Positions 2,710 through 9,000 of a DNA stretch of 64,000 nt are shown piece after piece. Under the pieces are notes generated by a model that did not search any database, had not been told where the DNA came from, and worked only from the letters and a program-made list of their open reading frames with translations. A program made the translations under genes and the position numbers. This stretch comes from Clostridiales bacterium (GTDB lineage Bacteria > Bacillota > Clostridia > Lachnospirales > Lachnospiraceae): contig JAJBVD010000002.1 of assembly GCA_020859985.1 (NCBI GenBank), positions 1-64,000 on the forward strand. The letters are read 5' to 3'. Numbering within the stretch: the stretch's first letter is position 1; each line of letters begins with the position of its first letter.

Positions 2710-3582
2710 ATGATTGGATTAGAACGAGGAATTATAAAGCTGTGCGATTATGAAAAAGAATGGGAAAAGGAAGCACAGGACACCATAATCCAGCTTAAAA
2801 ATGTGCTTGGTGATGTTGCGAAGGATATTCAGCATGTGGGAAGCACGTCTATCCCAATGATTAAGGCAAAACCGATTATTGATATCGCGGTAGCAGTGGA
2901 TGATTTTAAGGACATACTTGCATTGGAACAGGAATTAAAATCAGCAGGCTTTTATTACAGACCAAAGTATGACGAACTTGGAGAACAGCTATTGTTTGCA
3001 TCGGGCAGTTATTATCAGGGTACAGGAGATTTGCAGACGCACTTTATTCATGTCGTTCATGCAGGTGGTATGGACTGGATCAATTATATAAATTTCCGGG
3101 ATTATCTGAACCATGAGCCGTCTGTTGCGAAAGAGTATGAGCGCTTAAAGCTTACACTTGCATCACAGGCGCCTGTTGACAGCGGCCGGAAAAAATATAC
3201 CAGTGGGAAACATGATTTTATTGTCCGTACTTTAAGAAAAGCACTGGTTAAATCTTTTCTGGGTAAAACGGTAAATATTAAGATTGACCGCCCGATGGGG
3301 AGCAGACACCCACGCCATCCGGAGATGATATATCCGGTTAATTACGGATTTATTCCGAATGTATATAGCGGTGATGGTGCTGAACTCGATGTGTATTTGC
3401 TTGGGGTGAATGTTCCGGTTCTAGAATACACAGCATCAGTCATCGGCATCATCTATCGTGAAGATGATGTGGAGGATAAGCTTGTTGCAGCGCCGAATGG
3501 GATTCGATTCTCAAAGGAAGAAATTCAGACAGCGGTAAATTTTCAGGAGCAATTTTTTAAGAAAACAATTGAGTTACTTTAG
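2710..3582 (+). CDS. GrpB-like nucleotidyltransferase fused to a pyrophosphatase-like domain
   Basis: Residues about 1-175 are a GrpB/UPF0157 domain, with the hallmark HVGSTSIPMIKAKPIIDIAV and the HFIHVVHAGG and WINYINFRDYL blocks. This family has a nucleotidyltransferase fold and unknown substrate. From about residue 180 the protein changes to an inorganic-pyrophosphatase-like domain (DRPMGSRHPRHPEMIYPVNYG, then GDGAELDVYLLG and VEDKLVAAP). The DxDxxD-type metal signature is degenerate: GDGAELDV keeps the outer aspartates but has Ala in the middle position. I chose ATG 2710, which has AGAAGG upstream, over an in-frame ATG at 2683. No stop or frameshift separates the two parts. Confidence 0.85.
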   Translation: MIGLERGIIKLCDYEKEWEKEAQDTIIQLKNVLGDVAKDIQHVGSTSIPMIKAKPIIDIAVAVDDFKDILALEQELKSAGFYYRPKYDELGEQLLFASGSYYQGTGDLQTHFIHVVHAGGMDWINYINFRDYLNHEPSVAKEYERLKLTLASQAPVDSGRKKYTSGKHDFIVRTLRKALVKSFLGKTVNIKIDRPMGSRHPRHPEMIYPVNYGFIPNVYSGDGAELDVYLLGVNVPVLEYTASVIGIIYREDDVEDKLVAAPNGIRFSKEEIQTAVNFQEQFFKKTIELL

Positions 3583-3781: not shown

Positions 3782-3832
3782 ACATTTACAGTGATAAATG
3801 GTTATGTTATGTGTTGTAAGGAAGGTCAAGGT

Positions 3833-4786
3833 ATGATACAGTATTTGCAGGAGAATCTGGGAATATCGGTAAAAGAGAGCGCGTGGGATTTAGAAGACAG
3901 GATTCCCTTATATTTGAAGAGTGGGCGGAATTATTCTATTCTTCAAATTGAATCTCTTGATTGTCTCTGCATACGAATTACGTCTGATGATTTCAAGATT
4001 TCTTCTTATCTGAAACAGTTGGATAAGTTGTCTGGATATTGGAATGATAATATCATTCTGGTCTTTCAGGAGTTGTCTTCTTATCAGAGAAAGATGCTCA
4101 TTCAAAACAGAATTGCTTTTATTGTTCCGGAGTCACAAGTGTATATTCCTTTTCTTGGTATGGTATTCAAAGAAAGAAAGGCTAGCCGGCGGAGCATTGT
4201 AGATGATAAGCTTTCAGCTACTGCTCAGCTGCTATTGCTCTTTGTAATTAAGAATAAAATAAGAAAAATACGTCAGGCTGATATTACGCACTTCATTCCA
4301 GCCTCCCCAATGACCATTTCGAGAGCCGTAAATGAATTGATTCAGTTCAATCTGATGAATGAAAAAATAAATGGCCGAGAGCGCATTTTACTGGTTGATT
4401 CATCTATGTTGGATTTATATCAGAAGTGTAAAACGTATTTAAAAAGTCCTGTTAGCAGAATAGTTTATGTAAAGGAAGGCGATGTACCAGAAGAGCTTCC
4501 TTTAGCTGGAGAGTCTGCTCTTGCGGAATATAGCATGCTTAATCCGCCTAAAGTAAACTGCTACGCAATGTGGAAAAAGAATTTCAATAAATTGAAGCTG
4601 GATACTGTAGATCCCAATTGGACGAGAGAACTATACGCGGAAATTCAATTGTGGATTTACGACCCGCTGCTGTTGGCTAATGGAAGATATATTAGTGAAC
4701 TGCCGCTTGCTCTTTCCTTTGAGAATGAAACAGATGAAAGAGTAGAAGATGCAGTAGAAACTATGATGGAGAATTATAAATGGTAA
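3833..4786 (+). CDS. AbiEi-like antitoxin/transcriptional repressor
   Basis: A 317-residue protein with an N-terminal domain of unclear kind, a winged-helix segment at roughly residues 120-185 (DKLSATAQLLLLFVIKNK, then ADITHFIPASPMTISRAVNEL) and a C-terminal domain. Gene order and a 7-base overlap with the nucleotidyltransferase toxin gene downstream indicate the antitoxin of a type IV AbiE-like system, where the antitoxin acts as repressor and counters the toxin. I chose ATG 3833, which has AAGGAAGG-type sequence upstream, over a GTG at 3791. The sequence is far from the classical AbiEi, so the assignment rests mainly on context and the HTH. Confidence 0.7.
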   Translation: MIQYLQENLGISVKESAWDLEDRIPLYLKSGRNYSILQIESLDCLCIRITSDDFKISSYLKQLDKLSGYWNDNIILVFQELSSYQRKMLIQNRIAFIVPESQVYIPFLGMVFKERKASRRSIVDDKLSATAQLLLLFVIKNKIRKIRQADITHFIPASPMTISRAVNELIQFNLMNEKINGRERILLVDSSMLDLYQKCKTYLKSPVSRIVYVKEGDVPEELPLAGESALAEYSMLNPPKVNCYAMWKKNFNKLKLDTVDPNWTRELYAEIQLWIYDPLLLANGRYISELPLALSFENETDERVEDAVETMMENYKW

Positions 4787-5535
4787 ATGGATTTGAGAAA
4801 TTCAAGGAACATTTTGTTGGGTATGAAGATTGCTATACGATTATCGGTGGAACAGCCTGTGATATTCTGATGAATGACGCTTCGGTTGACTTTCGATTGA
4901 CTAAAGATATCGACATGATTCTTTTGATTGAGAACAGATTTGAAGAATTTGCGGAGGTATTTTGGGAATTCATCAAAGCCGGAAATTATAAGTGCGGTTG
5001 GCGCAATTCTGAAATACCACATTTTTATAGGTTCACAGAGCCAATGTCAGGATATCCTGTTATGATTGAGTTGTTTTCAAAACGGCCGGACTTTCAATTA
5101 AATCATACAGACATACATCTTACCCCTTTGCCGGTATCAGAAGAAATATCAAGTTTGTCCGCCATTATGTTGGATGACAATTATTACAATCTTATGTTGA
5201 AAGGGAAGAAAGTAATAGGCGGTATTTCTGTTTTGGATACAGAATATCTTATTGTGTTCAAGATTAAGGCTTATCTGGATTTAAGACAAAAGAAAGCGAA
5301 AGGAGAGCATGTTAATGATAGGGATCTGAAAAAACATAAGAATGATGTTTTCAGATTATTATCCATTGCAGATGGTACTTTTCGGATTACACTTCCTAGT
5401 ACGGTTTATAATGAAGTGAATGATTTTATAAGTATAGTGAAGGCGGAACCTGTAAATCTAAAAAATCTTCATTTGGATGATTTTGCACCAGAAACGTATT
5501 ATCGAATTTTGAGTAGTATTTACATATCAGAGTAG
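4780..5535 (+). CDS. AbiEii/AbiGii-type nucleotidyltransferase toxin
   Basis: A 251-residue protein with the DNA polymerase beta-like nucleotidyltransferase signature GGTACDIL followed by RLTKDIDMIL (the GG/GS...DxD pattern) near residues 23-49, and a LDTEYLIVFKIKAYLDLRQ block that AbiEii-type toxins carry in their helical domain. Toxins of this group nucleotidylate targets such as tRNA and arrest growth, giving phage abortive infection. The start ATG overlaps the end of the antitoxin gene (ATGGTAA), implying translational coupling. Its last 65 bases are part of the 74-bp sequence duplicated at 308-381. Confidence 0.85.
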   Translation: MVNGFEKFKEHFVGYEDCYTIIGGTACDILMNDASVDFRLTKDIDMILLIENRFEEFAEVFWEFIKAGNYKCGWRNSEIPHFYRFTEPMSGYPVMIELFSKRPDFQLNHTDIHLTPLPVSEEISSLSAIMLDDNYYNLMLKGKKVIGGISVLDTEYLIVFKIKAYLDLRQKKAKGEHVNDRDLKKHKNDVFRLLSIADGTFRITLPSTVYNEVNDFISIVKAEPVNLKNLHLDDFAPETYYRILSSIYISE

Positions 5536-5544: not shown

Positions 5545-5790
5545 GAATTGAAGCAAATTCAGGATGCGTATGATGAGGCTGGGTGCAAGGTTGAATACTA
5601 TGGAGATGAATATGGTTTCACCGTTCGCTTTTACCGTCATTGCGATGAAGGTTGGGGAACAGATATGGGTGCCAATGGTTCAGCTTCTAAAGGTCTAAAG
5701 GTTCAAAATGAACCTTTAGAAGAACCTTTGGAAATGAAAATCAAGAGAATTCGAGAAATCCGAACCACTGGTTCGGATTTTGGGAGATGA
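5539..5790 (+). pseudogene. Remnant of an AlbA_2/ATP-binding accessory protein (C-terminal part)
   Basis: The 83 codons read RELKQIQDAYDEAGCKVEYY, then GDEYGFTVRFYRHC, and a NEPLEEPLE segment. This matches the C-terminal end of AlbA_2-domain ATP-binding proteins, which end their ATPase part with GFTVRFYR and carry NEPLNEPL repeats before a winged helix. The N-terminal ATPase is gone, since the frame starts right behind the AbiEii stop. CTAAAGGTTC at 5695-5704 and its complement at 5710-5719 form a perfect 10-bp inverted repeat inside it. From about 5735 the frame is no longer recognisable and runs into the YhcG fragment. Confidence 0.65.
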
Positions 5791-6514
5791 GCTGCCATTT
5801 ACATTGCCGTGGACGCATTATCTGGTTTTAATGCGAATTCAAAATGAAAATGAACGACGTTTCTATGAGATTGAGGCAACGAATTGTGGCTGGAGCAGGC
5901 GCACACTGCAACGCCAGTACAATTCCAGTCTTTATGAACGGCTTGCTCTCAGCCGGGATAAAAATGAAGTTATGCGGCTGGCATCAGAAGGCAACGTGAT
6001 TGAGAAGCCGGAGGATATTGTGAAACAGCCTACGGTTCTGGAATTCCTTGGACTTGAGGAAAGAGAAAAATATGTAGAATCGGATTTGGAAACGGCGTTG
6101 ATAAACAAACTGCAGAAGTTTCTGTTGGAGCTTGGGAAAGGCTACCTGTTTGAAGCAAGACAGAAAAGATTTACATTTGACGAGGATTCTTATTACATCG
6201 ATTTGGTCTACTACAATCGTATCCTGCGATGCTACGTGCTGATTGATTTAAAAACAGATAAGCTAACGCATCAGGATTTGGGACAGATGCAGATGTACGT
6301 CAATTATTATGACCGCTATGTCAAGCTTGATAACGAAACACCAACAGTAGGGATCTTGCTTTGCAAGGAGAAAAATGATGCGTTAGTTGAAATTACATTG
6401 CCGGAAGACAGCAATGTATATGCTTCCGAATATAAACTTTATCTTCCAGATAAGAAAGAACTGCAACAGAAACTAAAAGAGTGGATTGCGGAGGAAGTTG
6501 GAAAGGAAGAATAA
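5780..6514 (+). pseudogene. 5'-truncated YhcG (DUF1016) nuclease copy
   Basis: From LPFTLPWTHYLVLMRI to the end this copy is nearly collinear with residues from about 125 onward of the full-length gene at 7888-9000. It has identical blocks such as RRTLQRQYNSSLYERLALSRD-type sequence, FEARQKRFTFDEDSYYIDLV and LIDLKTDKLTHQDLGQMQMY. It keeps the PDDEXK-like nuclease domain (the D-x-x...LIDLK core) but lacks the N-terminal DUF1016_N helix domain. The only start is a TTG at 5780 without a clear ribosome-binding site, and its frame overlaps the preceding remnant. It may still express a nuclease fragment, but I read it as decayed. Confidence 0.75.
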
Positions 6515-6542
6515 AACAGCTTGTAAAAGATAGCCAGAAACA

Positions 6543-6692
6543 GGAGATACACTTGAGTTGTTGGTAAAAGAAACGAAGAAACAAGGTGTGTCACAGATTT
6601 CATTAGAGGCGACGGACATGGGGCGCCCATTGTATGAGAAGTTTGGATTTGTGAAAATGGAAAATGAGATGAAGTATAATATTGGAATATAA
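6543..6692 (+). pseudogene. GNAT acetyltransferase remnant (C-terminal part)
   Basis: In the frame ending at TAA 6690-6692 the translation reads LELLVKETKKQGVSQISLEA, then TDMGRPLYEKFGFVKMENEM. This is the acetyl-CoA-binding C-terminal half of a GNAT acetyltransferase (the LYEKFGF motif). There is no start codon and no N-terminal half, so it is a fragment left by rearrangement. It fills the gap between the YhcG fragment and the RhuM gene. Confidence 0.75.
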
Positions 6693-6710
6693 TTTTAGGG
6701 GGAAATCTAA

Positions 6711-7748
6711 TTGAAAAAGAAAAAGAATGAAATAACTATCCGCTCAAGCGCGGCGGAATATTTGACCTATATTGCTTCTGTTGGTGATCAGCAGGACAGC
6801 ATTGAGTTGCGCTACGAGGATGAAAATATATGGCTGACGCAGAAAATGATGGCTATATTATATAATGTCGATGTGCGAACAATAAATTATCACATCAAAA
6901 AGATTTTTCACGATAGCGAATTACAACAGGACTCAGTTATCCGAAAATTTCGGATAACTGCCGAGGATGGTAAGACCTACAATACGAACCATTATTCGTT
7001 GGAAATGATTATTGCTGTTGGCTTTAAAGTGAATTCGGAGCGTGCGGTGCAGTTTCGCAAATGGGTGAATCAGATTGCCAAAGATTATACCATAAAGGGC
7101 TGGGTGCTGGATGATGAGCGGTTGAAAAACGGAGGTTCTGTGCTTACAACGGAATACTTTGACCGATTGCTTGAACAGATACGGGAAATCCGTTTGTCTG
7201 AACGTAGATTCTATCAGAAGATAACAGATATCTATGCCACAGCACTTGATTATGACCGCACAGCTAAAACAACGAGGCAGTTCTTTACAAAAGTACAGAA
7301 TAAAATGCACTATGCAGTGCATGGACACACAGCAGCTGAACTTACTTATGAGCGTGTTGACGCAGAAAAGGAGCATATGGGACTTACCACATGGGCGGCG
7401 GCACCTGAAGGCAAAATCGTTAAGAGTGATGTAAGCATAGCAAAGAATTATCTTACGGAGCAGGAGATGCGCTCACTGGAACGTATTGTGTCTGCGTATC
7501 TGGATCTGGCAGAGGACCGGGCGGAACGACATATACCAATGACGATGGAGGATTGGTCGAAACGTCTGGATTTATTCTTAATGGCAGACGATAGAGAACT
7601 TCTGCAGGATGCAGGGAAAATCACAGCAGAAATTGCAAAGGCTAAAGCAGAGACAGAATTTGAGAAGTACAGAATCGTTCAGGACAGATTATTTATGTCG
7701 GATTTTGATAAATATATTCTTGAATTAGAGGAAATTGCAAAGAAATAA
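6711..7748 (+). CDS. RhuM family protein
   Basis: A 345-residue RhuM-type protein. The N-terminal domain has the family pattern IELRYEDENIWLTQKMMAIL, then VDVRTINYHIKKIF and an NHYSLEMIIAVGFKVNSERAVQFRKW block. The C-terminal part is largely helical and includes an AEERAERH-like segment (YLDLAEDRAERHIPMTMEDW). RhuM proteins were named in Salmonella SPI-3 and often sit in restriction or BREX loci; their activity is unknown. The start is a TTG at 6711 with GGGGGA nine bases upstream. Confidence 0.85.
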   Translation: MKKKKNEITIRSSAAEYLTYIASVGDQQDSIELRYEDENIWLTQKMMAILYNVDVRTINYHIKKIFHDSELQQDSVIRKFRITAEDGKTYNTNHYSLEMIIAVGFKVNSERAVQFRKWVNQIAKDYTIKGWVLDDERLKNGGSVLTTEYFDRLLEQIREIRLSERRFYQKITDIYATALDYDRTAKTTRQFFTKVQNKMHYAVHGHTAAELTYERVDAEKEHMGLTTWAAAPEGKIVKSDVSIAKNYLTEQEMRSLERIVSAYLDLAEDRAERHIPMTMEDWSKRLDLFLMADDRELLQDAGKITAEIAKAKAETEFEKYRIVQDRLFMSDFDKYILELEEIAKK

Positions 7749-7766
7749 GACTTTGGGAGAAATGGA

Positions 7767-7868
7767 ATGAAAATAAGACTTATGACAATGAAGGATTATA
7801 GTGTGGTCTATCGCTTATGGATGTCATGCAAGGGTAAGTTTCAGGATGTTTTGGCAAAAATCAAGTAA
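7767..7868 (+). pseudogene. GNAT acetyltransferase remnant (N-terminal part)
   Basis: The 33 codons begin MKIRLMTMKDYSVVYRLWMS, the start of a common clostridial GNAT family (which goes on after CKG with a GLND/DDS-type stretch). Here the sequence switches to GKFQDVLAKIK and stops. A GGGAGAAATGG ribosome-binding region precedes it. The short frame could be translated, but an acetyltransferase cannot be formed. It is the third acetyltransferase fragment in the first 8 kb. Confidence 0.65.
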
Positions 7869-7887
7869 GGCAGGAGGTGGATAGAAT

Positions 7888-9000
7888 ATGTCGAAAAAAG
7901 AAATCGTCGTTCTGGAAGAAGACGTTGATATCAGCGAATTGATACGAAATTCCGTTGACTTGGTCGAATATGCCAGAGGGCTGGCAAGTAAACAGGTCAA
8001 TATGATCCAGCTTATGACCTATTATTCCATAGGGAAATGGATTGTAGATGTACAGCAGAAAGGGGAAGAACGGGCAAAGTACGGACAGCGGGTGATTGCT
8101 TCGCTTGCGGATGGGATGACGGCTGTTTACGGGAGAGGATTCTCAAAATCCAACCTCGAAAATGCCAGAAAATTTTATTTGACATACAAAGACCGAATTA
8201 CCCAAACAGTGTTTAGGCAATTCGCGATAGAAAAAAACCAAACAGTGTTTGGGCAATTGGAGAAAGACCCGCCGTTCAAAGTTTCATGGTCACATTATTT
8301 ACAGCTGATGCGTATCAAGGACGATTCCGAACGCAGCTTTTATGAAATAGAAGCTGCCGAGTCGAACTGGAGTCTTCGCACCTTGCAGAGACAGTATAAC
8401 TCCAGTCTTTATGAGCGGTTGGCTTTGAGCCGGGATAAGGATGCGGTTTTAAGGCTAGCCAAGGAAGGAAATGTAATAGAAAAGCCGGAGGATATTGTGA
8501 AACAACCCACAGTGCTTGAATTCCTTGGTATGGAAGAAAAAGCGAAATATGTGGAATCTGATCTTGAAACTGCGCTCATAAACAAATTACAGAAATTCCT
8601 TCTGGAGCTTGGAAAAGGATATCTTTTTGAAGCAAGGCAGAAAAGGTTTACCTTTGATGAGGACTCATATTATATCGATTTGGTTTTCTACAATCGTATA
8701 CTTCGCTGCTATGTTTTAATTGACCTGAAGACGGACAAGCTGACGCACCAGGACTTGGGGCAGATGCAGATGTACGTGAATTATTACGACAGATATGTCA
8801 AGATGGATGTAGAAAATCCGACTGTGGGAATTCTTCTCTGTAAGGAAAAGAATGATGCGCTGGTTGAGATTACTTTGCCCAAGGACAGCAATATATATAC
8901 ATCCGAGTACAAACTTTACCTTCCTGATAAGAAGGAATTGCAGCAGAAATTGAAAGAATGGATTGCGGAAGAACTTGGCGAAGACATCGACCAGATGTAG
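7888..9000 (+). CDS. YhcG family PDDEXK nuclease (DUF1016)
   Basis: A complete 370-residue YhcG-type protein. Residues about 15-165 are the DUF1016 N-terminal domain (ISELIRNSVDLVEYARGLAS, then LMTYYSIGKWIV and RGFSKSNLENARKFYL). The C-terminal domain is PDDEXK-like: YLFEARQKRFTFDEDSYYID, LIDLKTDKLTHQDLGQMQMY and GILLCKEKNDALVEITL. Proteins of this family occur beside restriction-modification and BREX genes and are thought to act as accessory nucleases. ATG 7888 has AGGAGGTGG nine bases upstream. A truncated near-copy lies at 5780-6514. The gene ends 37 bases before the pglZ fragment. Confidence 0.9.
   Translation: MSKKEIVVLEEDVDISELIRNSVDLVEYARGLASKQVNMIQLMTYYSIGKWIVDVQQKGEERAKYGQRVIASLADGMTAVYGRGFSKSNLENARKFYLTYKDRITQTVFRQFAIEKNQTVFGQLEKDPPFKVSWSHYLQLMRIKDDSERSFYEIEAAESNWSLRTLQRQYNSSLYERLALSRDKDAVLRLAKEGNVIEKPEDIVKQPTVLEFLGMEEKAKYVESDLETALINKLQKFLLELGKGYLFEARQKRFTFDEDSYYIDLVFYNRILRCYVLIDLKTDKLTHQDLGQMQMYVNYYDRYVKMDVENPTVGILLCKEKNDALVEITLPKDSNIYTSEYKLYLPDKKELQQKLKEWIAEELGEDIDQM

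Follow-up and report, generated by a model that had tools for sequence, protein, structure and literature searches.

The window, the whole stretch of 64,000 nucleotides analysed here, carries at 2710..3582 (+) a gene for a protein of 290 aa, read in a single uninterrupted frame from an ATG at 2710 to the stop at 3582. A mechanical call of an upstream TTG start at 2683 finds no backing from the alignment. The N-terminal part of the protein is a GrpB domain (PF04229) and the C-terminal part is a small relative of the family I inorganic pyrophosphatases (PPases; PF00719). The latter belongs to a domain family of ~105 aa for which the name ‘mini-PPase’ is coined in this analysis. A first-pass annotation, made from the sequence alone, had recognised this pair of domains in one protein, had called the second domain degenerate, and had proposed that the fusion may point to the reaction of GrpB; as a whole, that interpretation is partly supported.

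Upstream of the fusion (404-2628, +) lie genes for a maltose/galactoside-type O-acetyltransferase, a carbon-nitrogen hydrolase and a PRK06762-type P-loop kinase, which together with the fusion form a run of small-molecule-modifying genes. Downstream (3791-5535, +), a winged-helix protein with a weak CARF3-type HTH match is encoded in overlap with a nucleotidyltransferase-like protein that has a GG...DID motif and an AbiEii match at E 0.15. By its sequence this pair looks like an AbiE/MNT-type two-gene unit, and it also adjoins the fusion in one relative (L003). Further on (5780-9000, +), a PDC-S05 (RhuM-like) gene lies between two PDC-S02 genes (YhcG-like, PD-(D/E)XK), one truncated and one full-length; all are defence candidates, and a duplication is apparent.

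The GrpB domain spans residues 9-176 (2734..3237, +). A Pfam profile search matches PF04229 to these residues with E 4.2e-41, and the score of 141 bits lies above the curated cut-off of 25.5. Among solved structures, GrpB 2nrk is the best sequence match and corresponds to the first half of the protein; family I pyrophosphatases come next and correspond to the second. The domain is an ordinary member of the GrpB/UPF0157 family, to which PDB 2nrk and the C-terminal domain of mycobacterial CoaE belong; unlike known members, it bears a mini-PPase tail. Its conserved residues are W18, H42, G44-S45-T46, K54, D58, H114, R130, D131, Y143, K147, Y163 and K167: the GST...KP..D motif and the downstream His, Arg, Tyr and Lys residues are invariant or near-invariant in 44 GrpB domains, and the window copy has them. 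The first-pass annotation had started from the premise that GrpB transfers nucleotides and so releases pyrophosphate (PPi). The first nucleotidyltransferase acid (D58) is invariant in all 44 domains compared, but the second acid is Asp in only seven of them and is replaced by A60 in the window copy, which therefore lacks the D-x-D carboxylate pair of the signature hG[GS]...[DE]h[DE]h, and the premise is unproven.

GrpB domains are promiscuous too. The architectures described in 2009 are GrpB alone, CoaE-GrpB, ACT-GrpB, GrpB-ACT and GrpB-dCMP deaminase, with no PPase partner, and fusions of GrpB with GNAT, CoaE and deaminases are already in print (PMC2765170); fusions with GNAT, cytidine deaminase, P-loop kinase and methyltransferase are observed here. 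At the junction (3184..3270, +), the C-terminal helix of GrpB (residues 159-183) runs into the first strand of the mini-PPase (187-194) with hardly any linker, and residues L175, R176, K177, A178, L179, S182, L184 and K186 are invariant in an alignment of 26 fusions. A full-length model of the fusion has a pTM of 0.68.

The mini-PPase domain occupies residues 185-290 (3262..3579, +), as delimited by profile, model, fold search and family alignment. PF00719 matches residues 202-283 with E 1.4e-8, over the Pfam cut-off, and covers only profile positions 28-112 of 153; many members of the family fall below this cut-off or go undetected. AlphaFold2 predicts the isolated domain with a pLDDT of 96 and a pTM of 0.89, and in a PDB fold search with this model the top matches are all family I PPases (E ~1e-6, TM 0.59-0.75 by query length). 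A direct profile alignment of the mini-PPase and PPase families gives E ~5e-12. Together, the profile alignment, the model and the fold search rule out a chance domain match.

The active site of family I PPases is built from E20, K29, E31, R43, Y51, Y55, D65, D67, D70, D97, D102, K104, Y141 and K142 (E. coli numbering), with D67 as the canonical general-base or catalytic Asp. The mini-PPase shares with these enzymes (PF00719; E. coli PPase, PDB 1faj/1i40) the fold, the DR...YPxNYGxI...D-G-x-x-x-D core and the region around D97/D102/K104. Profile alignment with the E. coli enzyme, whose residue conservation was checked across six PPases, shows R43, Y51, N54, Y55, D65, D70 and the D97/D102/K104 region to be retained. 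In the IDRPMGSR motif (residues 192-199; 3283..3306, +), D193-R194 fall on D42-R43, and the motif R250-E-D-D253-V-E-D256-K257 (3457..3480, +) aligns with the D97/D102/K104 region. The metal motif D222-G-A224-E225-L-D227 (3373..3390, +) has the form DGxExD where PPases have DGDxxD: D222, A224 and D227 stand opposite D65, D67 and D70, so the two outer Asp residues are kept and an Ala takes the place of the central one, just as the first-pass annotation had read it. There are further differences. With about 105 aa against about 175, the mini-PPase starts past E31 and lacks the N-terminal hairpin with E20, K29 and E31, so that the family I fold is present in part. No residue can be matched to K142 with confidence, and the C-terminal helix is aligned with Y141-K142 only unreliably. 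The domain has gained a six-residue insertion around GSxHPxH, additional invariant His and Arg residues, and a Glu one residue after the replaced D67.

These changes are features of a family. Among 116 distinct mini-PPase domains, the column of D67 holds Glu in 77, Ala in 28, Lys in six and Asp in two, and the central Asp is missing in 114; the next position is Glu in 102 (DGxExD). Near-invariant throughout are D11, R12, H18, Y26, N29, Y30, G31, D40, D45, Y47, R68, D71, K75, F96 and E98 (hmmalign model numbering). The window copy retains every one of the family-invariant residues (D11, R12, H18, Y26, NYG, DG-x-E-x-D, Y47, R68, D71, K75 and F96-x-E98), and for this reason it is, as judged from the alignment, an intact member of a distinct, remodelled family and no decayed pyrophosphatase. 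Comparison of relatives gives dN/dS values of 0.04-0.21 in GrpB and of 0.08-0.35 in the mini-PPase: both halves are under purifying selection. ‘Degenerate’ is thus the wrong word for a domain whose site is nearly invariant apart from a position that is non-Asp in almost all relatives. Nor does the loss of the Asp imply, as had been suggested, that the domain binds rather than cleaves, since this loss is family-wide, a Glu usually stands beside it, and the other Asp, Arg, Lys, His and Tyr residues hardly vary. Real decay is seen in one relative (L025), in which NYG has become HVG, the second motif Asp Gly, and the motif Lys Met.

When 84,980 species genomes were scanned, many near-full-length fusions with 62-98% identity came up in independent assemblies. 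Their labels include Lachnospiraceae, Blautia, Oscillospiraceae and Erysipelotrichaceae among other taxa, although single labels of metagenome-assembled contigs may be wrong. GrpB is present in 54 of 245 genomes of the same class and shares a frame with a mini-PPase in about six; of 348 genomes from the window's family, 40 have a detected mini-PPase, as do 6 of the 399 genomes sampled from the phylum. In a tree of 110 rows and 106 columns, with weakly resolved deep forks, 31 distinct GrpB-fused mini domains from separate assemblies fall into one clade (support 99/98), which also holds one standalone copy (L036). The independent fusions, their supported clade, the largely invariant junction and purifying selection rule out a strain-specific gene as well as an assembly or sequencing error that joined two genes. 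GrpB and the mini-PPase can separate, with deletion derivatives running both ways: copies of the same GrpB have lost the mini domain in L028-L031, and the mini domain is retained without GrpB in L035. No conserved gene neighbourhood of the fusion was found among the relatives' loci. Viral spread of the fusion was rejected, as no relative turned up when viral contigs were scanned with GrpB, though a small number of viral or plasmid contigs do carry the mini-PPase itself. An anti-phage role was likewise rejected because the fusion has no PADLOC match.

The mini-PPase has many partners. By Pfam, they are GrpB, Nudix, GNAT of several kinds, SAM methyltransferases, PseudoU_synth_2, Toprim_4/DUF4093, DHFR, APH, Abhydrolase_1, PNPOx_N and Glyoxalase/VOC: at least eleven families in all and at least ten besides GrpB, with the module on either side of the partner. 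Partner labels require 27 changes on the 110-row tree while those for GrpB lie in one clade, so the simplest account is a single origin and later spread of the GrpB pairing, with many separate joinings of the module to other partners. Some architectures combine several domains, as in GrpB-mini-Nudix (L020, L021, L023, L077). In L236 (2184-4658, -), APH, GNAT, Nudix and mini-PPase stand in a row in one open frame of 825 aa, and in L216 (1489-2286, -) the domain is fused with dihydrofolate reductase. Many of the partner families include drug- or metabolite-modifying enzymes, a pattern that proves no function.

Standalone mini-PPase genes account for 41 of the 110 tree rows and occur in many genomes and plasmids, where RefSeq labels them ‘inorganic diphosphatase’. 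On the Priestia plasmid pBMG1, GNAT, a hypothetical protein, GrpB, GNAT and mini-PPase are encoded by separate genes in this order, so the domain pair proposed for a search recurs both fused and as split neighbours. The Enterococcus copy lies in a radical-SAM/AMP-binding cluster, before an AMP-binding/carrier-protein gene, and that of Phaeobacter in a radical-SAM/GNAT/MATE cluster. In a pyrimidine operon on a Streptococcus suis plasmid, the gene stands between pyrF and pyrE (L168, 4995-5321, +). This copy has Asp at the equivalent of H18, as do other Lactobacillales and Listeria copies. The survey rules out a pairing specific to GrpB. A PPi-forming neighbourhood as a rule was also set aside, as only the Enterococcus and S. 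suis cases support it.

The gene product would then be a two-domain accessory enzyme, in which the modification of a small molecule is most likely the task of GrpB and the mini-PPase, a minimal version derived from a family I PPase, acts as a mobile add-on that recombines with many small-molecule-modifying enzymes. Most likely, the add-on has Mg2+ or Mn2+ together with a phosphate or diphosphate group as its ligands; it may either cleave a phosphoanhydride or phosphate ester or present or sense such a ligand for its partner. The fusion, the single origin of the GrpB pairing, the promiscuity, the conserved remodelled site, purifying selection and the PPase fold are results of the analysis, and the metal, the phosphate ligand, catalysis and a coupling to GrpB are inferred from them. 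Retained metal- and phosphate-binding residues, newly invariant positions and purifying selection all favour a functional site, but without the general base and the N-terminal hairpin it is not expected to hydrolyse PPi in the ordinary way. This metal-dependent phosphate/diphosphate module, cleaving or binding and accessory to small-molecule-modifying enzymes, is the favoured explanation, with about an even chance of being correct. Against it stand the lack of the canonical Asp, E20/K29/E31 and a clear K142, the relatives without a mini domain, with a decayed one or without GrpB, and the fact that no conserved neighbourhood backs a pathway.

A neighbouring explanation, close to the idea of the first-pass annotation, is that the mini-PPase is a true, slimmed-down PPase that removes the PPi of its partner and pulls the reaction forward, with GrpB forming PPi by nucleotidyl transfer. 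The mostly retained site with its conserved Glu next to the lost Asp, the standalone copies near PPi-forming enzymes and the RefSeq name are all consistent with it. The pyrF-pyrE context of S. suis would suit PPi removal, yet it is absent in four other relatives of that copy. Most partners (GNAT, methyltransferase, DHFR, VOC, PNPOx, pseudouridine synthase) produce no PPi, and the second nucleotidyltransferase acid is mostly absent from GrpB. Moreover, the host genome encodes a separate DHHA2-bearing family II PPase elsewhere, so bulk PPi removal is not the role of the domain, and a housekeeping PPase identity was rejected. Since the general base and E20/K29/E31 are absent as well, a true PPase is considered unlikely.

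The mini-PPase could instead be a non-catalytic sensor of PPi or another diphosphate, regulating its partner in the manner of ACT or CBS domains. Its small size, its promiscuity on both termini, the short conserved junctions and the lost catalytic Asp would fit, and there is a precedent: plant FAD synthetase carries a pyrophosphatase-like domain on a nucleotidyl-transferring enzyme that is proposed to bind only (PMC9678776). Both cases pair such a type of enzyme with a pyrophosphatase-like domain, with the proviso on GrpB given above, but the folds are unrelated (the model template of the plant domain is a CinA protein), the plant domain has a single partner, and its catalytic residues have truly gone. 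Standalone genes make up about a third of the tree copies, and the conserved Asp/Arg/His/Lys/Glu set resembles catalysis more than mere binding, leaving the sensor as improbable as the true PPase. A decayed pyrophosphatase, kept for nothing more than help in folding or oligomerisation, is less probable still: L025 is indeed decayed at several family-invariant positions, and the GrpB domain of mycobacterial CoaE reportedly acts in the folding of its partner (PMC2765170), but the polar site is invariant in the 116 diverse domains, standalone copies included, and the intact window copy and purifying selection speak against loss of function. A bolder extension of the favoured module is that the mini-PPase, built on a PPase fold, serves bacteria generally as a ligand-sensing or -processing unit for a single common metabolite that is phosphorylated (PPi, an alarmone or a compound of the nucleoside diphosphate type). 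Unrelated small-molecule-modifying enzymes would repeatedly have acquired it as a means of control or to bring their reaction to completion; this would be a tentative proposal, with perhaps the same low probability as the sensor.

To our knowledge, no relative of family I PPases has been described as a module with such varied partners, and the open-licence literature searched yielded no report of a PPase domain joined to Nudix or GNAT or combined with GrpB. Databases name the domain ‘inorganic diphosphatase’ or miss it, so its real activity is probably misannotated. Because the partners are too diverse and the second nucleotidyltransferase acid is missing from most GrpB domains, the fusion is weakened as a pointer to the GrpB reaction, and the pairing informs less on GrpB than on a reusable protein module. 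The ligand of that module, if found, would explain a feature common to DHFR, APH, GNAT, Nudix, methyltransferase and GrpB variants of gut bacteria, and would offer a concrete handle on the chemistry of GrpB.
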